A stretch of 64,000 nt of DNA from a virus. Position numbers and translations under genes: made by a program. Shown here one piece after another: positions 3,798 through 60,081 of the stretch (the first letter of the stretch is position 1; every line of letters begins with the position of its first letter). The DNA lies in the IMG/VR virus record IMGVR_UViG_3300003877_000001, positions 248,001 to 312,000 of that record; one strand, 5' to 3'. The notes beneath the pieces were generated by a model that worked only from the letters and a program-made list of their open reading frames with translations, did not search any database and was not told where the DNA came from.

Positions 3798-4402
3798 TAT
3801 ATTTCTATTTCTAAATCTTCTAAAAAGGTTCTAAAATCAAATGAAGGATTTAAATCAGTATAATCACTATTATAATTACTTCTGGTTACTATTCCCTCAT
3901 ATTTCAATGTATTTTCATAATATACATTAAAACCTAAACAATCTAATTCAATATCAAATTCTTTAATTAAAAATTTACATAACTCAACAGTCGAATTATA
4001 TTGTTTTTCAGTATATTGTTCCCAATATGTATGACCATTCCACTTTCTTTCATACATCAATTCTTCAGGACATACATCATGAACCCAATTAAGATATTTA
4101 CTTGTTTCATAATCATAGAAAAGCATCCCCATATTTTCTAATACTATTGATATTGATTTTTTATCAATTTCTTTATTACCCATATAATCTGAATAATATT
4201 TTGGATCATAATGTTGGAATATTTTTCCTTCTCTACTTATGGTGTATGTGCACCAGCTTTTACCATTACCACCATCTTTATGTTTTAATCTATTTATGTG
4301 AAGATTATCTTTTCTAAGACTACCAGCTAATATTATTTGTGTTTTATCATATTTTGCTTTGTAGAAATTATCTATTTTATATGTATCTCTATCTATCTTC
4401 AT
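3797..4402 (-). CDS. Amidase_2-like cell-wall hydrolase (possible endolysin), zinc site altered
   Basis: 201 residues. The layout resembles N-acetylmuramoyl-L-alanine amidases of the amidase_2/PGRP fold: a first strand (QIILAGSL), then WCTYTISREGKIFQHYDP, corresponding to the usual 'Y.I.rdG.iyq' segment, then KKSISIVLENMG, corresponding to 'siGIel.N'. The C-terminal VTRSNYNSDYTDLNPSF resembles the 'H...DPG..F' end. The two zinc histidines expected near residue 26 and in the C-terminal block are not visible (A26, and no His near the NPSF block). It may therefore use another chemistry, or bind without cutting. It overlaps its neighbours by 14 nt and 1 nt. Confidence 0.5.
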   Translation of the reverse strand: MKIDRDTYKIDNFYKAKYDKTQIILAGSLRKDNLHINRLKHKDGGNGKSWCTYTISREGKIFQHYDPKYYSDYMGNKEIDKKSISIVLENMGMLFYDYETSKYLNWVHDVCPEELMYERKWNGHTYWEQYTEKQYNSTVELCKFLIKEFDIELDCLGFNVYYENTLKYEGIVTRSNYNSDYTDLNPSFDFRTFLEDLEIEI

Positions 4403-5187: not shown

Positions 5188-6214
5188 TAGTTTGTGGTTT
5201 ACGTGCTTCTTCTAAGTCTTCCAAGCTAATTCTAATTGCTTTAATTGCTTTGACTTTAGGTGATAACATACCCATATTTTTATTTTTTGGTACTTTTACC
5301 CATTCTATAACATCACCCTTTTCAAGTACATTAAGTTTAGAATCGTCTTGATCTACTGGATTCGGAAAAATAATATCAAAATAATTAACATCTTTAAATG
5401 TTTTTTCTTCAAGACTTATTCCACTAAACATAAATTTAAGAAATTCAATATTACTAAATTCATTTAATGGTTTAGATGGTGGTTCATAATAAAACCCACT
5501 ATTAGTACCATATCCAATCATATTTCTAGGATTTGGTGGTGGTGGGGGTTGTGGTATTACAGATTCTCCAACTTTACGAACAACAGATGCTGCTTCTCTA
5601 ATACTATCAGTAAAAACATTACTACCTTGAAATTGTTGTTGTGCTTGTTGTTGTTTATAATGTTGTCTATTCACAATATTATCATATTCAGATTTTATTC
5701 TATCTATTTCACTAGTGAGAGTATTTTCACCATCAGCAATATTATCTAATTTTGCTTGTTGATTAGCAAAATTTTTCATTGCTTTTGCTCGTCTTTTTTC
5801 TGCATTCCCTAATGCTTCTTCCATATCATTTAAAAATCCCATATCAATAATTTTATCTGTTAAACTTCTTTCTGTATAGTCTCCTGCATATCCCCCAATC
5901 CCAATATTATTATTTCCAGTTGCACAACTAACATATCCTTGTGCAGTTGAATAATGTCCAGTTGCACAACTACCCACCATTGGTTTCTTAATTTCAATTA
6001 TTTCACCACAATCTAAACACTTCAATGCTGGTACTTTAATCTCATTAACTTTAGCAATTTCAAAATCATTTATTTGTTGAAATCTACTATTAGATATTGG
6101 GTGATGTGTTTCAATTACTGTATGTTTTACAGCCTCAACCTTTGTAGTATTATTATGTTTACATTGTTTTTTTCTTTCACCCATGATTAAATTGGATATA
6201 ACAGGTAATGCCAT
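5177..6214 (-). CDS. Zinc-ribbon and coiled-coil protein, unknown
   Basis: 345 residues. The N-terminal 70 residues have Cys/His pairs (CKHN near 18; CLDCGE near 66) that could bind one zinc. Next come two short similar units, SCATGHYSTAQGYV and SCATGNNNIGIGGY. Residues about 125-200 are a charged coiled coil ending in a Gln-rich stretch, followed by a proline run (PQPPPPPNPR). The C-terminus is globular. I do not know the family. It is the first gene behind a host-type promoter, so it is likely expressed early with the deaminase. An internal Met at residue 11 is an alternative start. Confidence 0.7.
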   Translation of the reverse strand: MALPVISNLIMGERKKQCKHNNTTKVEAVKHTVIETHHPISNSRFQQINDFEIAKVNEIKVPALKCLDCGEIIEIKKPMVGSCATGHYSTAQGYVSCATGNNNIGIGGYAGDYTERSLTDKIIDMGFLNDMEEALGNAEKRRAKAMKNFANQQAKLDNIADGENTLTSEIDRIKSEYDNIVNRQHYKQQQAQQQFQGSNVFTDSIREAASVVRKVGESVIPQPPPPPNPRNMIGYGTNSGFYYEPPSKPLNEFSNIEFLKFMFSGISLEEKTFKDVNYFDIIFPNPVDQDDSKLNVLEKGDVIEWVKVPKNKNMGMLSPKVKAIKAIRISLEDLEEARKPQTNES

Positions 6215-53300: not shown

Positions 53301-54295
53301 TCTAATATTGTAAAACCATAGGCTATTGTTTGATTATATTTTTCAGTACTATTACCAAATTTAACAGTACTACCCTTTTTTCTCCATAAATCTTCTTCAG
53401 GTATTAAGGTAGTTTGTATTCTATTTTTAGGTATATCTTCTTTTTTTCTTTTTCTAGGAAACCCATTTTTAGTATATTCTGATTCAACATCCATTCCTAA
53501 TAATCTAGCTCTACCCAATATAAAGTCATAATCAAACATTTCAGAGTTATAACCTGAAATAATTGCAGGATTAATATATGTAATTAAATTAAAAAAATCT
53601 TGTATTATTATTTTTTCTGATTCATCATCATCAGGTTTTTCAACTTCTAATACATGTTCAAATCCTTTATTATCTTTCATACCAATAGCAAAGATTCTTG
53701 AATGTTCGTATCTTAAACCAGTGGTTTCAATATCAAATGTTAATTTATGTACATCATTATATTCTTCAAATCCTTTAAATAATCTAATTCCTGTTGATAT
53801 GAAAAATTGTTCATTTAGTTTTGGAAGATAAAATAAATCTCTATATTTAGAAACACTAAAACCTCTATTATCTTTAAGTATTTTACCTCTATCATCATAA
53901 ATTTTTTGATATGGATTTAAACCAGCTTCTTCAAAAAATTTAATTAACATACTAAATGATTTAGTTGTAGATGCTTTATATGGATAACCATTTTCTAATC
54001 TTGGATGGTTACCTGTTTTCATTTTTGTAATCGTTACATCATACTTTTGTAGGATTGCCTTATATTTATCAACATTACCATCAAAGAGTTTATACCCAAC
54101 CTTTTTAAGGTCTTTAAAATAGATGAATGATGTAAATGGTATTCGAACAATTTGTTTGGTTTTATTTGGTTCATGAATTACACATGTTGCATATTCATGA
54201 TTATTGTCTGTTTCAACATTAACCAAATATTTTACATCATTATTTTTCCCTTCTAAAAATTCTTGAATTTCTTTAATAGTATTTTCAGTTGTCAT
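50360..54295 (-). CDS. Family B DNA polymerase with 3'-5' exonuclease
   Basis: 1311 residues, longer than T4 gp43 (about 900). Exo I is LTFDIETTGL (about 183-192), Exo II ISGYNSEMFDYDFI. Polymerase motif A is LKIDYASLYP (about 553-562), motif B KILNNSLFGA (about 644-653), and motif C is LLAVTDGINF (about 693-702), where the usual YxDTDS reads V-T-D-G: the first Asp is missing. A 12-bp triplication encodes EGVSEGVSEGV near 716. The last 300 residues are an extra charged domain. It replicates the phage genome. Its ATG overlaps the helicase stop by 4 nt. Confidence 0.92.
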   Translation of the reverse strand: MTTENTIKEIQEFLEGKNNDVKYLVNVETDNNHEYATCVIHEPNKTKQIVRIPFTSFIYFKDLKKVGYKLFDGNVDKYKAILQKYDVTITKMKTGNHPRLENGYPYKASTTKSFSMLIKFFEEAGLNPYQKIYDDRGKILKDNRGFSVSKYRDLFYLPKLNEQFFISTGIRLFKGFEEYNDVHKLTFDIETTGLRYEHSRIFAIGMKDNKGFEHVLEVEKPDDDESEKIIIQDFFNLITYINPAIISGYNSEMFDYDFILGRARLLGMDVESEYTKNGFPRKRKKEDIPKNRIQTTLIPEEDLWRKKGSTVKFGNSTEKYNQTIAYGFTILDIIHAVKKTAAVNSEIKNNKLKYICKYEDIAKPNRMYIHDGKDIGRFWHKNPMFILNSENNDYIEIPAKFYNVSSELYFLQENKDKISDDEYKVARNELLKPNPEFVEWLRPNIIKLNPDKFSSTTIDFKFENGKNILRRYLLDDLWETEQVDNLYNQSSFLLAKIVPTIYSRVATMGNAAVWNLLMTAWSYENDLAIPHPDDVERFSGGLARCYKKGYTKRLLKIDYASLYPMIQLTHDVFPMFDITGVIKKMLTYMTTTRNIYKKLGNEDKLTDNEIELLKTIDNESYQIFFSGKFTKEQINIFIVKQLPIKILNNSLFGALGSGYAFNWSDNICAARITTTGRIYLRQAIDWFNKFGLIPLLAVTDGINFSIPDTTTIRATNEGVSEGVSEGVIEEMWEYNNKTGVSALIEKFNDYLKDHYTSLGRENSYLSVDNDGEFDSCLNLSRINYALMSDDIDKETGKPKQVPDPNFNGCFINKKKIKFTGNTIKSKTMPEFIEDFIDESMKLILDGNGEGFIEYYYNYSETIFYKQIPLKKIASKSRIKNSIDDYLNRGTNKNGKLKAKQVHMELIIAERENIARKIFENDFEKFKDDDNREIGDYDIMTIIEKVETYMPPEPELDTTVYYVNTGTRKSHGDVKSDSKTGETIIKARLINQKDLEENPETTGDYNVEKYLAAFNKRVKVLLDGFDAEIRDEILVKIVRKKIEDASGAKVEQIDLKKGEFKSDQLVLKNFNHDDYEDSMYLEDREVDFWNKTGYDPRLIWDGFKTKDVEKYGLVNYEIYNHALNYLSDAMEKSGKSRIKSINDKTIRGDYVLIKNIIKVGDITPLVVNASKPKIENKYVYKNGNHWVRDKYTIGYNNGEFIEILKKYDDVKVPLSPTEHQWEEAEKVKEAELQKLRVEDVNYINVQKEKIVKERMKKIEYFKSFVKDNNIPPHYDMDELFEKVPNVKLAFDDYVNEKEADFEPDIYFDEGDL
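52115..52150 (-). repeat. 12-bp x3 tandem repeat in polymerase gene
   Basis: Three near-perfect copies encode EGVS-EGVS-EGVI just after motif C. Slippage would change length in steps of four residues. Confidence 0.75.
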
Positions 54296-57200
54296 TCTTT
54301 GTATTTGTTTTTAAGTTTGTTGATAACATCTCTAAGTACAGATTCTGAAATATTACTTTCATAATCTTCGTTATCCAATGCTTTCATTATTTCTTTTCGT
54401 TTAGATTCTATAACATCAAAAACATACTCATCGAGAGTATCTCTAAATATGATAGGATAGATGTTAACTGTGTTTTTCTGTGAGATTCTATGAAGCCTAT
54501 CTGCAACCTGATCATATTGACCAACAGAGAATGGGAGTGTAATAATAATCATTTTTGATGATGCTGTCAAGGTTAAACCATAATTAGCTGTCTGAATTGA
54601 TGCTAAAAATATTTTAACATTACTTTCAGGGTCTTGAAATTTAGCTACTAATGCTGCTCTATCTTCTACTGTTTGATCACCAGTATGTAATGCTGAATTT
54701 TCTGGATAAAGATCATGAAGATCATATAATGATTGTTTAAACATATCAACAACAACAACTTTTTCACCTTGTTCTAATATATTATCAATGATTTCTCTAA
54801 TATAGTTAACCTTAATTGATGAAGTATATTGACGTAATCTCAACATTATAGTTAATGGATTTGATGTTGGTTTCTCATATATCTCATTAACAACATCTTC
54901 CTCAATTTGATCATATAATTTATCTTCCTTAGTATTAAGTTCTAAAATAATTTTTTGATAAATTTTATCAGGTAAATCGGTTAATACTTCTTCCTTTTTC
55001 TTTCTATATACATATGATGCAATTTTATGAAATAGTTCTTCCAATTTTTGATGTTGTACGTTTGTTGACCAACCACCAAAACCATCCATATCATAGGACA
55101 TGCCACAATAATATTCATTAAAATGTTTTTTTGTTGCAAAATCAATCGGTGATATTTGATTTAGTACCGTATATAATTCATGTGCTCTATTTGGTGCAGG
55201 AGTACCTGAAAGAAATACTTTACTAACCTCTCCATTTTTGAATACCTTTTTATTAAATATTCTTTTGAAATTTTTGAATGTATTTGCTGAAGTATTTTTT
55301 AATGCTTGACAATTACTAACTAATATACTATTAGCAAAATAATTATGATTATCCGCTATTTCTAGATCATATACCCTTTTATTTTGTTCACCACTTCTTC
55401 CAAATTTTCGTCTATTTCCTGATTCCAAAATCTCAATACTTTCCACCCAAACAATTTCAATATCTCTGTTTTCCTTTTGTCTAGAAATTTCCATTTTTTT
55501 GTTTTGTGAGATTTTCCATCTATTTCTATTGATAATTTTATTGATGTAATTCCAATATCCACTTTGTAATGTGTTGGTGGAGATTTTATATTCGTAATAC
55601 CCATTTCCTTTAATGGTTTCATTATTGGTATCACATGTTCCATTTCCATAAATGTAATGCCTGAAATTTCTCCAAATAATATTAATTGTTGTTTTGTCAA
55701 TTTTCCATTTCCACCCCTTGATAAAAACGTTCTCCCAATCATTTTTTTTCTCATTTTTTCTACTGTTATTGGGTTTGACATTGGATTGTTCAATTTCATC
55801 CTCTCCGATTGATTCTTTCTCATTTGAGGGTTCTTTTTGTAAAACTCTATCATAGATAGACTCCTTTTTTTCGAAAGTTCCTTCATATATAATTTTTCTT
55901 TTATTTCTGGTAAAGACATTCTCCATTTTGCTGAACAACTTGTTGAACAAAATTTCTTTTTTCTTTTTTTCATTACTTGAAATTCCACGCCACATTGTTG
56001 ACATATCCTTATCTCTCTCAATTGTAAATTGACTTCTTTTTTTCTTCCAGTGTATTTTGTTGAACATTTTCTTGAACAAAGTTTTTGTGTTCTTCTTTTC
56101 TGTTGAAATAGAGTGTTGCACTCTAGGCAATTTGTTTTTTTTATTAATTTTCCCTTTTCTTTCCATCTCTGCTTCATTGAACACGTTACAGTGCAACATT
56201 TCTTTTTCACATGTTCTTTTATTTGGAATTCTTTCTCGCAAAATTGGCAATTTCGTGTTATTATTTTGCTTTGTTTTCTTTTTAATAAGTTTTTCCCCAT
56301 ATTTAAAATTTTTAATAGGTTTATATTTATTTTCAGTAATTGAATAAAATTTGTGGTCTGGTGTACATTCGATTATTTCACCATTAGATAATTTTATTTT
56401 AATTACATCTTTATATCCGTTATATAAATACCTACTAATTGTTTTTGTTTCAATCTTTTTTAACGTATGATTATAGGATAAAACTTTTACATCTAATTTA
56501 TCTTCAACAATTTTCCCAATTTTCATTTTCCCTTTATCAGTATCAATTAATGTATTATATGTAAAACATTCGTCTGCAATTAATACATCTATTAAACCAA
56601 TATTTAAATCTTTAAATTTTTTATCAACTTTTTTCTTATCTCTAGAATTAAAATATTCATAATTAACAATAATATATTTAGATTCTTCCATTGTATGTTT
56701 ATTCTTAAATTTACTAGATTTAGGAACAATTATATGTGCTTTAGAATGTGTAAATTTTTCAACTTCATTAAAGAAATTAAATTTTAATGAGTTAGGTGTT
56801 ATTACAAACACCCTTTTAAAATTATTCATCTCAACATATGCAATTGCAGAAAGTGTATTGTGAGTTAAAATACAATTATCTGTAACATATAAATGATCTT
56901 CTGCATCAACCATTATACATTGTGCTTCTTTTTTACCAACATAATTAACTTCCTTTATTGCTCTATTAGGTAAATATTTTGTAGGTGATACATATCTTTC
57001 TATTTTACGTTTTAATTTGAAAGGTATTATATTGGGTGGTAATTTTATTGATAATCTATAATATGTTGGTTTTACTTCTATCTCTTCATACCATGAAGTT
57101 CTAGTTTTATACCTTGCAATACCACCTAATGATTGTACAATAAACTTTACATCATCTATTAATTGTTTTGATGCTAATGTTAAATCAATATTCATACCAT

Positions 57201-58398
57201 CAGAACTAATAGTTCCATCCGTATCCATAATTCCCCTTAAAATTTCTAATCTATCTTCAATTGAAGAGAACATATAATCTTTAGGAATAAATTTTGTGTG
57301 TGAACCACACCCCTTTAAGTTATATTCTTTTAAATTTTGATTTATGTAATTATTTTTACCATCTGCCGTTAGATAATAATCTTTTTTACTATTTCCAGAT
57401 AAAACTAACTGATGATTTTGTGGTAATTTAGAGTCTATCTCGTTAATAATTTCATTATCTATATTCGTAAAACTAACACCATATTTTGTTGTAATAGAGC
57501 CATCACCCAATAAACAACCTAAAATATATGGGTCTATTTTTAATTTTTTTTCTTTAAATTCAATTGGTTCAACAATGGGTATATAATGTTTATTATTACC
57601 ATTATCAAACTGTAACCCCTCATTCATGATTTCTCTAAGTGTTTTTGTTTGATATGAATATTTTTTTATTCCTTTATTTGTTCTATGAATTCTAGTTGTT
57701 GAATTAACATTCCAAAGATGTTCATCACACGATCTTGCTGTTGTATTGTCATTAAATTTAATTTCATATATATCTTTTTTACCTTGAGGATAAACTCCAA
57801 TAACTTTTGTTGATTTACCATTACTTCCAATCACATAATCACCAACTTTAACATCGCCCATTCTAATCCAACCATTAGGTGTAAGTAGTTTAGAATCTAA
57901 GTCTTGGCTTTTTCCTAAACCCATTTCTAGTGCTAATAAAACACTTTTAACTTCATCAATAAACATAGTACCAGCTATTTGATGTGGATATAATATTGTA
58001 CCTTCTTTAAGATTTTTATGTGTTAGTTCTCTATATTTTTCAAAATCCTTATCTAATTCATCTTTTAATCTAATCCAAAGATTTTTCTTTTGTACAAGTA
58101 ATTTTAATTCTAAGATTTTTCTCGCATCATCTTCATCAATTTTTTTGATTTGCTTAATAAATGCGTGTTTTTCTTCAACACCACCAAAATCAAATACGAT
58201 TTTATTAGATTTACGATACCTCTTCATTAGTTCATAAAGACCTCTGGTATTCATAATCCAACAATTTTCAACAGAATCCCATTTACGCCAATCTACGTTG
58301 ATTTCCTTTATTCTAGAAACAACTTCTTTATGATAATCGAAAAATACTTTATATTTTGATTGTCGTAATATTCTATGACAGGATACTTTAAAGGGCAT
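54292..58398 (-). CDS. SNF2-type helicase interrupted by two inteins
   Basis: 1368 residues, of which about 598 are extein. N-terminal part (1-163) has a HARP-like/SNF2 lead, then Walker A as LALEMGLGK|TLSAIA, split by intein 1 (164-514). Walker B is VLIADE|CQALKN, split by intein 2 (611-1029). The C-terminal helicase lobe has LSGTPAPNRAHEL, DMFKQSLYDLHDLY, LHTGDQTVEDR, ASIQTANYGLTLTAS and QVADRLHRISQKN (motif VI). After splicing it would be a UvsW/SMARCAL1-like DNA translocase for fork remodelling. It is followed by DNA polymerase with a 4-nt overlap. Confidence 0.9.
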   Translation of the reverse strand: MPFKVSCHRILRQSKYKVFFDYHKEVVSRIKEINVDWRKWDSVENCWIMNTRGLYELMKRYRKSNKIVFDFGGVEEKHAFIKQIKKIDEDDARKILELKLLVQKKNLWIRLKDELDKDFEKYRELTHKNLKEGTILYPHQIAGTMFIDEVKSVLLALEMGLGKSQDLDSKLLTPNGWIRMGDVKVGDYVIGSNGKSTKVIGVYPQGKKDIYEIKFNDNTTARSCDEHLWNVNSTTRIHRTNKGIKKYSYQTKTLREIMNEGLQFDNGNNKHYIPIVEPIEFKEKKLKIDPYILGCLLGDGSITTKYGVSFTNIDNEIINEIDSKLPQNHQLVLSGNSKKDYYLTADGKNNYINQNLKEYNLKGCGSHTKFIPKDYMFSSIEDRLEILRGIMDTDGTISSDGMNIDLTLASKQLIDDVKFIVQSLGGIARYKTRTSWYEEIEVKPTYYRLSIKLPPNIIPFKLKRKIERYVSPTKYLPNRAIKEVNYVGKKEAQCIMVDAEDHLYVTDNCILTHNTLSAIAYVEMNNFKRVFVITPNSLKFNFFNEVEKFTHSKAHIIVPKSSKFKNKHTMEESKYIIVNYEYFNSRDKKKVDKKFKDLNIGLIDVLIADECFTYNTLIDTDKGKMKIGKIVEDKLDVKVLSYNHTLKKIETKTISRYLYNGYKDVIKIKLSNGEIIECTPDHKFYSITENKYKPIKNFKYGEKLIKKKTKQNNNTKLPILRERIPNKRTCEKEMLHCNVFNEAEMERKGKINKKNKLPRVQHSISTEKKNTKTLFKKMFNKIHWKKKRSQFTIERDKDMSTMWRGISSNEKKKKEILFNKLFSKMENVFTRNKRKIIYEGTFEKKESIYDRVLQKEPSNEKESIGEDEIEQSNVKPNNSRKNEKKNDWENVFIKGWKWKIDKTTINIIWRNFRHYIYGNGTCDTNNETIKGNGYYEYKISTNTLQSGYWNYINKIINRNRWKISQNKKMEISRQKENRDIEIVWVESIEILESGNRRKFGRSGEQNKRVYDLEIADNHNYFANSILVSNCQALKNTSANTFKNFKRIFNKKVFKNGEVSKVFLSGTPAPNRAHELYTVLNQISPIDFATKKHFNEYYCGMSYDMDGFGGWSTNVQHQKLEELFHKIASYVYRKKKEEVLTDLPDKIYQKIILELNTKEDKLYDQIEEDVVNEIYEKPTSNPLTIMLRLRQYTSSIKVNYIREIIDNILEQGEKVVVVDMFKQSLYDLHDLYPENSALHTGDQTVEDRAALVAKFQDPESNVKIFLASIQTANYGLTLTASSKMIIITLPFSVGQYDQVADRLHRISQKNTVNIYPIIFRDTLDEYVFDVIESKRKEIMKALDNEDYESNISESVLRDVINKLKNKYKE
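55312..56568 (-). mobile_element. Intein 2, in Walker B motif, with out-of-frame endonuclease
   Basis: Residues 611-1029 of the helicase frame (419 residues). It starts with Cys (CFTYNTLIDTDKGKMKIGKI), has block B CTPDHKFYSITENKYKPIKN, and ends VYDLEIADNHNYFANSILVSN, quoted here as DLEIADNHNYFANSILVSN, before the +1 Cys. The splicing parts are residues 611-700 and 1009-1029. Between them the helicase frame is open but codes for a Lys/Asn/Glu-rich, non-conserved sequence, because that DNA encodes a nuclease in the +1 frame. Confidence 0.88.
55362..56300 (-). CDS. Zinc-finger VSR-like homing endonuclease in +1 frame within intein 2
   Basis: 312 residues, start ATG at 56300 inside the TAT-GGG of KYGEKL, stop TAG inside the CTA-GAA of VYDLE. 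Three CxxC...CS..C zinc fingers (NCQFCEKEFQIKEHVKKKCC; NCLECNTLFQQKRRTQKLCS; ICQQCGVEFQVMKKRKKKFC), a NUMOD3-like block (NPMSNPITVEKMRKKM) and a VSR/EDxHD nuclease domain: HYKVDIGITSIKLSIEIDGK, SHKTKKWKFLDKRKTEIL and GWKVLRFWNQEI. These are strongly protein-like, unlike the overlapping helicase-frame translation. No late or early promoter is directly before it; internal initiation is most likely. Confidence 0.85.
   Translation of the reverse strand: MGKNLLKRKQSKIITRNCQFCEKEFQIKEHVKKKCCTVTCSMKQRWKEKGKLIKKTNCLECNTLFQQKRRTQKLCSRKCSTKYTGRKKEVNLQLREIRICQQCGVEFQVMKKRKKKFCSTSCSAKWRMSLPEIKEKLYMKELSKKRSLSMIEFYKKNPQMRKNQSERMKLNNPMSNPITVEKMRKKMIGRTFLSRGGNGKLTKQQLILFGEISGITFMEMEHVIPIMKPLKEMGITNIKSPPTHYKVDIGITSIKLSIEIDGKSHKTKKWKFLDKRKTEILKLFGWKVLRFWNQEIDENLEEVVNKIKGYMI
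56857..57909 (-). mobile_element. Intein 1, in Walker A motif, with LAGLIDADG endonuclease
   Basis: Residues 164-514 (351 residues). It starts with Ser (SQDLDSKLLTPNGWIRMGDV), block B is ARSCDEHLWNV, and it ends DAEDHLYVTDNCILTHN before Thr. The endonuclease part (about 286-470) carries two LAGLIDADG-like motifs, ILGCLLGDGSI and ILRGIMDTDGTI. Splicing would restore GLGK-TLSAIA, the ATP-binding loop. Confidence 0.92.
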
Positions 58399-58431
58399 AT
58401 ATTATTTTTAAATTTGTTTAATTATTAGTAG

Positions 58432-59106
58432 TTAAAAATCACGCTCAATTTCCATTCTTTTGATACAATCTAGTGGTGTTTCGTTATCTAGTAATTTATA
58501 ACTACACCCAATCGTTCCACCTTTCCAACTCCATTTCTTTTTCCCAACTTCTTTTGAAAAATGTATATCAATAGTTTTATTTACTAACGCAAATACTTTA
58601 GTCCACTTTAACCATTTAGGTCGCCATTCTCTTTCTTCCACATATATTTTTGTGGGGATGATTTCGCCATCATATTTATCTTTGTAATCATATTCCCATA
58701 CTGCTTGTTTAATCTTCCAATTATCTTCATAAAAATTTTTATGATTTCCATTTGTTTCGTGTTCCCAACTATTATTTTTTAATAAAATTGATGTTCTTAT
58801 CCAATCTTTTGTAATAAATGGAATATCCCAAGTCCACCATTTACTACCACCATCCATATTACCCTTACCCCCTTTATAAACCCAAAATGTATTATTGTGA
58901 ATTGCAATTCCCCATTTAGGACAATCACATTCATTCGTCCATTTGTTTCTAAAAGGGAGTATAATTGTTAAATTAAAAAATATAAAATCTAAATTAATTC
59001 TTGGTCTATTATCAAAATATCCACATATTTCAAAACTAATATCAAAAACTTTTGACCAATAAAATATTAACCATTTACTTTCATAAATCCATTTCTCTTT
59101 TTTCAT
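58432..59106 (-). CDS. Conserved Trp-rich phage protein, unknown function
   Basis: 224 residues with 22 or so Trp. Segments such as WKWTKVFALV, EREWRPKWLKW, FSKEVGKKKWSWKGGTIGCS and MEIERDF-like ends match a hypothetical protein seen in many unrelated phages. Its role is not known to me. It is the first gene of the replication operon, 33 nt before the helicase and behind a host-type promoter. Confidence 0.72.
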   Translation of the reverse strand: MKKEKWIYESKWLIFYWSKVFDISFEICGYFDNRPRINLDFIFFNLTIILPFRNKWTNECDCPKWGIAIHNNTFWVYKGGKGNMDGGSKWWTWDIPFITKDWIRTSILLKNNSWEHETNGNHKNFYEDNWKIKQAVWEYDYKDKYDGEIIPTKIYVEEREWRPKWLKWTKVFALVNKTIDIHFSKEVGKKKWSWKGGTIGCSYKLLDNETPLDCIKRMEIERDF

Positions 59107-59125
59107 ATATTTATTTCTTAGTTCA

Positions 59126-59156
59126 CAAAGATAATAATATTTCCATCAAAATGCAA
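59126..59156 (-). promoter_or_regulatory. Bacteroidota-type early promoter of replication operon
   Basis: Minus strand TTG (59156-59154), 20-nt spacer, TATCTTTG (59133-59126), 19 nt before the ATG at 59106. Same -7 sequence and spacing as the primase promoter. Confidence 0.7.
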
Positions 59157-59214
59157 CCATATTAAAAACATATTCAAATTTACCACAATATTCATAAAGA
59201 AAATTAATTTTAAT

Positions 59215-59223
59215 GTATTTATA
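59215..59223 (+). promoter_or_regulatory. Late-type motif on the plus strand
   Basis: GTATTTATATAC, 3 nt before the ATG of the plus-strand endonuclease gene. Its orientation matches the gene, as with the minus-strand copies. Confidence 0.45.
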
Positions 59224-59226
59224 TAC

Positions 59227-60081
59227 ATGGAATCTGGAATATATAAAATATTAAATAATATAAACGGTAAATTTTATATTGGTAGTACTAAAAATTTTAA
59301 TAAAAGATGGGTATCACATAAATACCTATTGAGGTTAAATAAACATGAGAATAAACATTTACAATATGCATGGAATAAGTATGGTGAAGAACATTTTCAG
59401 TTTATTAAATTTCAAGATGTTAAAATAGAAAATCTAATAATTTGGGAACAACATTATATTAATACGTTAGACGTATATAATAGAAATATTGGTTATAATT
59501 TATCACCAACAGCAAATAGTACATTGGGGTTTAAATTTAGTGAAGAATCTAAAATGAAAATGAGTCTAGCTAAAAAGGGTAAGCAATCATCAAGAAAAAA
59601 TTATAAGCATTCAGAAGAAACTAAGAAAAAAATAGGTGAAAATAATAAAATTAGTCAATTGGGTAGAATACATAGTGAAGGTACAAAAATAAAAATGAGT
59701 AAATGGCATACCAATAAAATTGTAAGTGATGAAACTAAGAAAAAAATAAGTAAATATCGAACAGGTAAATTATTATGTGAAGAAACTAAAATAAAAATTT
59801 CACAAAAGATGATGGGTAATAAATATGCTTTAGGGCATAAACATACTGAAGAAACAAAAAAGAAAATATCTGAAATACTAAAAGGTCATAATGATAATAA
59901 TAAACCTAGAAATATAGGAGAATCTAATGGTATGTCAAAAACTAACGAATTAGAAGTTTTATCAATTAGAGATGATTACAATAATAAAAATTTATCAATT
60001 AAAGAATTAATGGTAAAATATAATAAAAACTATCAGTTTATATATAAAATAATTAAACGATTAAGATGGAATTGGTTATAA
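59227..60081 (+). CDS. GIY-YIG homing endonuclease with NUMOD3 repeats
   Basis: 284 residues. SGIYKILNNINGKFYIGSTK is the GIY-YIG core; NFNKRWVSHKYLLRLNKHEN and WEQHYINTLDVYN carry the catalytic Arg/Glu region. Then about six NUMOD3 units of the form HSEETKKKIGENN / SDETKKKISKYRTGK. The C-terminus is a helix-turn-helix (IKELMVKYNKNYQFIYKIIK). This is a Seg-like free-standing mobile endonuclease, apparently intact. It is inserted on the opposite strand between the replication operon and the tail-fibre operon, and overlaps the last gene of the latter by 6 nt. Confidence 0.9.
   Translation: MESGIYKILNNINGKFYIGSTKNFNKRWVSHKYLLRLNKHENKHLQYAWNKYGEEHFQFIKFQDVKIENLIIWEQHYINTLDVYNRNIGYNLSPTANSTLGFKFSEESKMKMSLAKKGKQSSRKNYKHSEETKKKIGENNKISQLGRIHSEGTKIKMSKWHTNKIVSDETKKKISKYRTGKLLCEETKIKISQKMMGNKYALGHKHTEETKKKISEILKGHNDNNKPRNIGESNGMSKTNELEVLSIRDDYNNKNLSIKELMVKYNKNYQFIYKIIKRLRWNWL

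Follow-up and report, generated by a model that had tools for sequence, protein, structure and literature searches.

In this study, intein 2 of an SNF2-type helicase of a large AT-rich phage was found to enclose a complete endonuclease gene in its +1 frame, and this element is interpreted as a mobile intein in a new coding arrangement. We consider it highly probable that the intein is spliced, that its homing endonuclease is translated separately, and that the element homes to helicase motif II. The observations behind this reading are the conserved open frames, the constraint on the nuclease, the splicing motifs together with a predicted HINT fold, and the existence of three allele types. The window analyzed is a stretch of 64,000 nucleotides, positions 248001-312000 of a virus record of 325,854 bases. 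The original prediction, made from this stretch alone, had described a helicase frame that stays open across a 419-residue intein and a 312-codon gene in the +1 frame with its own ATG and TAG, and both were confirmed. The ATG of the nuclease overlaps the Tyr-Gly codons of the intein sequence KYGEKL, and its TAG lies within the Asp-Leu-Glu codons of VYDLE. The features of the locus are as follows:

54292..58398, minus strand: ORF of the SNF2-type helicase with two inteins, 1368 aa, without internal stop.
55312..56568, minus strand: intein 2, 419 codons, helicase residues 611-1029 (TIGR01445, TIGR01443 and Intein_splicing matches; alignment).
56278..56568, minus strand: N-terminal splicing domain of the intein, residues 1-97 (AF2 pLDDT ~90; Foldseek match to Npu DnaE).
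55362..56300, minus strand: nested endonuclease gene, +1 frame, 312 codons from ATG to TAG (DUF559 1.3e-14; AF2 mean pLDDT 90.3).
55935..56249, minus strand: three CxxC...CxxxC zinc-ribbon-like units, nuclease residues 18-122 (sequence reading; conserved Cys columns).
55377..55580, minus strand: EDxHD (Vsr-like) catalytic domain, nuclease residues ~241-308 (DUF559 match at 242-308; 3hrl and I-Bth0305I matches).
55471..56265, minus strand: intein-frame linker, residues 102-366, predicted disordered and stop-free (pLDDT mostly <50; probability of an open frame 1.3e-25).
55429..55461, minus strand: dual-coding segment, intein strand 370-380 and nuclease GWKVLRFW region (AF2 strand; reduced fourfold-site divergence).
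55312..55380, minus strand: intein blocks F and G with VSN|C, enclosing the nuclease TAG at 55362-55364 (motif models; AF2).

The helicase ORF matched the Pfam models SNF2-rel_dom (1.9e-13) and Helicase_C (1.5e-10), and intein 2 is inserted at DE|C within helicase motif II. The 0 frame matched the splicing models TIGR01445 (5.9e-14) and TIGR01443 (1.1e-9), above cut-offs, and Pfam Intein_splicing (5e-11). Moreover, the sequence criteria for an intein were met, with the nucleophile C1, TPDH in block B (TxxH) and a C-terminal Asn followed by Cys (C1...N419|C); the insertion keeps the reading frame of the exteins and lies at a conserved position of the active site, and intein-free alleles occur in related Vibrio phages. 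In the AF2 model, pLDDT was ~90 at residues 1-100, 370-380 and ~400-419 and mostly below 50 in the linker, and Foldseek matched the model to the Npu DnaE intein (E 1.9e-7) and also to Mtu RecA and others. The criterion of a HINT fold is met in this predicted, not solved, structure. A point against this reading is that the penultimate residue is Ser rather than the His of many relatives (VSN|C), though the Npu DnaE intein likewise has Ser at this position. Protein splicing of intein 2 is inferred from these motifs and the fold. A group I or group II intron at the locus was excluded, as an Rfam scan of 53500-59500 returned zero intron matches, the sole match being a sub-threshold nematode snoRNA.

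The +1 product had been described as a zinc-finger/VSR-like nuclease, and this assignment was borne out by the three zinc-ribbon-like units, the DUF559 match and the matches to 3hrl, I-Bth0305I and Vsr. The model of the nuclease is well scored although it is read from the same DNA as the low-scoring linker. Profile searches with HMMs matched the nuclease to 3hrl (1.7e-12) and to 3r3p, which is I-Bth0305I (0.0029). Foldseek returned 3hrl, 3r3p and Vsr (1vsr) with weak E-values (0.028), and these top matches belong to the expected family. The nuclease meets the EDxHD (Vsr-like) criterion by its relation to I-Bth0305I and Vsr in sequence and fold and by its conserved acidic and His residues. The zinc-ribbon-like units, recognized from sequence, probably serve in DNA binding.

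The nuclease was searched in viral contigs, in bacterial and archaeal genomes and in phage genomes, which gave 177 distinct loci, and homologues with at least 180 nuclease codons were taken as full-length (n=112). The nested layout, with zero intein-frame stops and recognizable N- and/or C-terminal splicing domains, was present in 105 of the 112, and the homologues came from phages and bacteria with a GC range of 0.25-0.70. Summed over the 101 cleanest long cases, which are the loci with both domains in one ORF, 23,442 intein-frame codons were stop-free, and the median in the other alternate frame of the nested loci was 22 stops. The remaining seven comprise two "fractured" loci (L153 and L165, with 26 and 23 stops in the intein phase), four long homologues outside inteins (8-14 stops) and one locus with a single stop (L055). 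This single stop, at L055 positions 4048-4050 in an otherwise nested element, may be a sequencing error, suppression or early decay. All control loci without any intein (62/62) had stops in the same phase.

Furthermore, intein N-domain matches adjoining homologues lay in the same alternate phase in 112/112 loci and never in the nuclease frame, and C-domain matches lay in that phase in 107/108, the exception being a deletion allele of this phage. An in-frame fusion in relatives had been named beforehand as the observation that would refute the nested reading; it was looked for, and none was found in the 112 loci with an intein N-domain match. In-frame fused ancestors were rejected on the same ground, none having been found among the homologues. 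Carriers among isolates include the Vibrio phages CP-T1, K391, 1.194.O, 1.088.O, 159E43-1b and 104E43.1, Pseudomonas phage MR14 and Corynebacterium phage phi673 (laboratory host C. glutamicum ATCC 13032), and in the isolate genomes the nuclease lies inside "helicase" genes with an offset of 1 every time. The layout occurs alike in contigs of independent origin and in genomes of isolates, which rules out an assembly artefact. The nuclease gene was missing from all of the annotated phage records examined (8/8), in which only the helicase is given. Homologues also occur in bacterial records, among them Longilinea arvoryzae and Ktedonobacter racemifer. Most host genes encode SF2/SNF2 helicases, with others as well, and the insertion lies at or near the Walker B motif; the same overprinted intein was also seen at the motif II position of clamp-loader-like (DNA pol III gamma/delta-type) ATPases (L132, L133 and L145). 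The homologues share ancestry, and the locus counts are therefore not independent events; in addition, nested sequences served as seeds of the searches that yielded the 105 loci, and the nested share may be overstated for this reason. The search for other inteins with this nuclease in an alternate frame, suggested with the original prediction, showed that the nested state is widespread and mostly shared in this nuclease family. Nesting out of frame and retention by overprinting stand, but the arrangement did not originate in this phage, and the feature is bigger than first reported.

The exact probability that the 0 frame is open was obtained by considering every synonymous version of the nuclease, and the remaining large ORFs of the window supplied the phage codon usage. 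This probability was 1.3e-25 with phage codon usage, which excludes a chance overlap, and 2.9e-8 even with the shifted codon usage of the nuclease itself; the claim that both frames are free of stops beyond expectation was therefore upheld. The shift is evident in the Asp codon GAC (8% in the phage vs 50% in the nuclease) and the Tyr codon TAC (8% vs 58%). In the observed phase, an intein codon consists of the third base of one nuclease codon and the first two bases of the next. All stop codons start with T, which falls at the nuclease wobble base; because NNT and NNC always encode the same amino acid, a T-to-C change there eliminates any stop without altering the nuclease. In the other sense phase, 8 stops of the window nuclease cannot be removed by any synonymous choice (family median 3). 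The recurrence of a single phase is set by the genetic code, and silent T-to-C changes suffice to clear the intein frame of stops in any nuclease. Before stop-prone codons, NNY codons of the nested genes ended 0 times in T and 1604 times in C, compared with 4392 and 2284 before other codons and with 421 and 530 before stop-prone codons in non-intein homologues. The count of 0 follows from the open frame itself; the information lies in the frame being open throughout and in this having been reached via C.

The codon-position check bore out selection on the nuclease. Between loci L056 and L059, nuclease differences at codon positions 1, 2 and 3 were 0.08, 0.12 and 0.37, and identity was 0.83 for the nuclease vs 0.61 for the linker. 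Judged from such sequence comparisons, the nuclease frame is under amino-acid selection and evolves like a protein gene. As positions 1 and 2 are conserved, position 3 is free and the linker is less conserved, the linker appears to be selected mainly for the absence of stops. Strong amino-acid selection on the linker was not supported, for nuclease wobble sites diverge nearly as much as extein wobble sites, the strand segment excepted. In that segment, nuclease residues 285-293 (GWKVLRFWN; motif GWxVLRFxN) have nearly invariant G, W, R, F and N, and the same DNA encodes RVESIEILE-like strands in the intein frame, including the AF2 strand at intein residues 370-380. The RVESIEILE columns (n=96) contained R in 78 sequences, V in 78, E/D in 77, S in 61, V/I in 82, E in 69, I/V in 87 and L/Y in 82, and fourfold wobble divergence was 0.43 here vs 0.60-0.67 elsewhere in the nuclease gene. 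The strand, the conserved columns and the low wobble divergence indicate that this 3' segment is an overprinted function rather than a spacer. The original description of the 0-frame reading as non-conserved consequently holds for most of its length but not for the last ~33 overlapped residues (~370-402), which are part of the C-terminal splicing domain and not dispensable linker.

The mobility of the element is reflected in its alleles. Among Vibrio phages with near-identical helicases, the site is empty (1.251.O and 1.024.O), holds a 150-aa mini-intein (K389 and K461) or holds the full 356-aa element (1.194.O), and the spliced and empty proteins are of equal length. Third-position divergence between L026 and L029 was 0.33/0.36 in the exteins, 0.05 in the intein N-domain and 0.04 in the nuclease. 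This pattern is as expected from recent homing, for which it is indirect evidence without cleavage data. Loss was also found, in that L075 equals L040 minus 552 bases, removed in frame at a short imperfect repeat with the nuclease lost and the intein kept; further in-frame deletion derivatives are L009, L072 and L073. The 100% identical contig IMGVR_UViG_3300003876_000014 (L002) has a 52-bp deletion within its own positions 5700-5900, near the 3' end of the nuclease, which breaks both the nuclease and the helicase/intein frames, and it may be a real defective allele, a newly split allele or an assembly error. The fractured loci L153 and L165 contain the same parts in the same order with the intein frame broken. 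In a quick tree (SH-aLRT only, many open forks, short outgroup rows), they form one pair that groups with the nested rows, with free-standing forms also inside. With modest support, this suggests that the fractured arrangement descends from the nested one, and because the tree is quick and weakly resolved, the order is a lean and not a result.

Separate expression of the nuclease from an internal ATG is plausible, being inferred without translation data. Among loci with a GC of 0.33 or higher, an SD-like motif was found at 25/70 first nuclease ATGs, 55/537 internal ATGs and 25/65 helicase ATGs, and the nuclease start codons are concentrated close to where the intein N domain ends. Some of these SDs sit in intein codons, such as GAGGT within DEVLYD, followed by ATG. 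The SD test gave no signal in AT-rich loci (1/21), since the phage as a whole lacks SD motifs: an SD-like 4-mer was absent upstream of all window ORFs of at least 200 codons (0/36), which have A/T-rich leaders throughout, that of the nuclease included. The lack of SD and the A/T-rich leaders in all 36 large ORFs hint at a host such as Bacteroidota.

The following course of events is proposed, in which splicing, internal translation, endonuclease cleavage and homing are inferred. Translation of the helicase frame would give a precursor in which the two HINT halves (residues 1-97 and ~368-419) fold around a disordered linker of ~265 residues, and the halves would then splice out to restore the helicase. 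The same mRNA would be translated from the internal ATG to yield the zinc-ribbon/EDxHD endonuclease. At motif II, this enzyme may cut helicase genes that lack the intein, and the intein with its nested gene would be copied into the cut allele by recombination.

Several other explanations were weighed against this mobile, spliced and overprinted intein. The overlap could have been made by two indels or assembly errors in an ordinary intein with an in-frame endonuclease, and the sister contig L002 with its frame-breaking 52-bp deletion lends this some color. However, 105 of the 112 full-length homologues, from many contigs and isolates, repeat this phase with an intein frame free of stops, no in-frame fusion was found among the homologues, and the codon choice of the nuclease is adapted; such an origin, excluded by this recurrence and already refuted by the conserved layout, retains virtually no weight. 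It is scarcely credible that the insert remains unspliced, with the 0-frame polypeptide staying in the helicase. The complete intein motifs and the predicted HINT fold speak against it, and 419 unspliced residues inside the essential Walker B motif should destroy the helicase, although experimental data on splicing in intein 2 are lacking and the ShiLan element is thought to stay unspliced (PMC11855218).

The endonuclease could instead be a dead passenger of an intein that alone matters, and the mini-intein alleles and the four in-frame deletions show that it can be lost. The strong codon-position asymmetry, the catalytic residues conserved across diverged homologues and the recent-transfer signature of L026/L029 make this very unlikely. 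Production of the endonuclease by ribosomal frameshifting, fused to the N-terminal part and without its own start, is improbable, and there are no slippery-site data. It is favored by the absence of an SD motif in AT-rich members, the window phage included, and by four nested loci without ATG near the nuclease start, two of which also lack GTG/TTG in the scanned stretch. Conversely, the SD enrichment at the first ATG in GC-richer loci equals that at helicase starts, the start codons are clustered, and the window phage starts all its genes without SD.

Among known systems, the closest likeness is to the ShiLan domain and the Pacc40 insertion, the former a phage methylase insert with an out-of-frame HNH endonuclease (Arsenault, Gosselin, Gogarten 2025, PMC11855218). 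Neither intein nor intron domains were recognized by its authors, who think that the insert stays in the methylase unspliced (PMC11855218), and an out-of-frame endonuclease has been noted in phage Applejack too (PMC12613952). These two were the only published out-of-frame cases in the literature searched, and no report of such an endonuclease within an intein was found there, subscription papers being mostly outside its scope. Both ShiLan and the present element have a homing-type endonuclease out of frame in phages with the host frame left open, and the ShiLan-type criterion of an out-of-frame endonuclease in a stop-free insertion was met. The criterion of an HNH without a splicing domain was not: ShiLan, with these properties, is in few phages, whereas the intein 2 family has full intein motifs, a predicted HINT fold and an EDxHD nuclease at over a hundred loci, in the Walker B motif of helicases and other P-loop genes. 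The catalytic domain resembles I-Bth0305I and Vsr/DUF559 nucleases in sequence and fold; I-Bth0305I, however, is intron-associated (PDB name "Mobile intron protein"), and the short bacterial DUF559 genes are free-standing.

Dassa et al. reportedly described in 2009 "fractured genes", in which a Vsr-like endonuclease stands by itself between the two parts of a split intein, mainly in phages. The same broad nuclease type lies at the same point between intein halves here, but in fractured genes the intein is divided between two genes, whereas the frame here runs through the nuclease and splicing would be in cis. The criterion of halves on separate ORFs was not met in the window phage, which has one open ORF. 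Two layouts have been assumed for inteins, with the endonuclease either fused in frame or free-standing between the halves of a split intein, and the present element adds a third, widespread arrangement, in which one frame encodes the linker and part of the fold of the splicing domain and another a complete nuclease invisible to annotation. We are inclined, by a narrow balance, to regard overprinted endonuclease inteins as a large, ancient and unrecognized class with a layout dictated by the code, in which loss of the through-frame gives rise to fractured genes and natural split inteins. The two fractured loci within the nested family and the sister contig L002 are candidate intermediates between contiguous and split inteins. 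The family also provides a large natural data set for the evolution of overlapping genes, with a simple code-based reason for the phase, and the wobble-base rule leads to the prediction that a recoded endonuclease could be placed in the same phase within any mini-intein.

In canonical mobile inteins, endonuclease sequence likewise lies between the splicing halves, as a LAGLIDADG or HNH domain in frame; here, the endonuclease is in another frame and is inferred to be made as a protein of its own, leaving the linker polypeptide as a by-product, and the criterion of in-frame fusion was not fulfilled (+1 in the window phage and in all homologues with an intein N-domain match). Intein 1 of the same helicase (~56850..57906, minus strand), inserted at the P-loop (GLGK|S...HN|T), has a LAGLIDADG domain in the usual in-frame position (Pfam LAGLIDADG_3 2.5e-10); both endonuclease arrangements thus occur in one helicase gene. 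Vibrio phage PS65A.1 (L238) has a large LAGLIDADG-like intein at the P-loop and an HEN-less mini-intein at motif II, and 13VV501A (L240) has mini-inteins at both helicase sites. Near the helicase gene of the window, a free-standing GIY-YIG homing-type endonuclease with NUMOD3 motifs is encoded at 59227..60081 on the plus strand.
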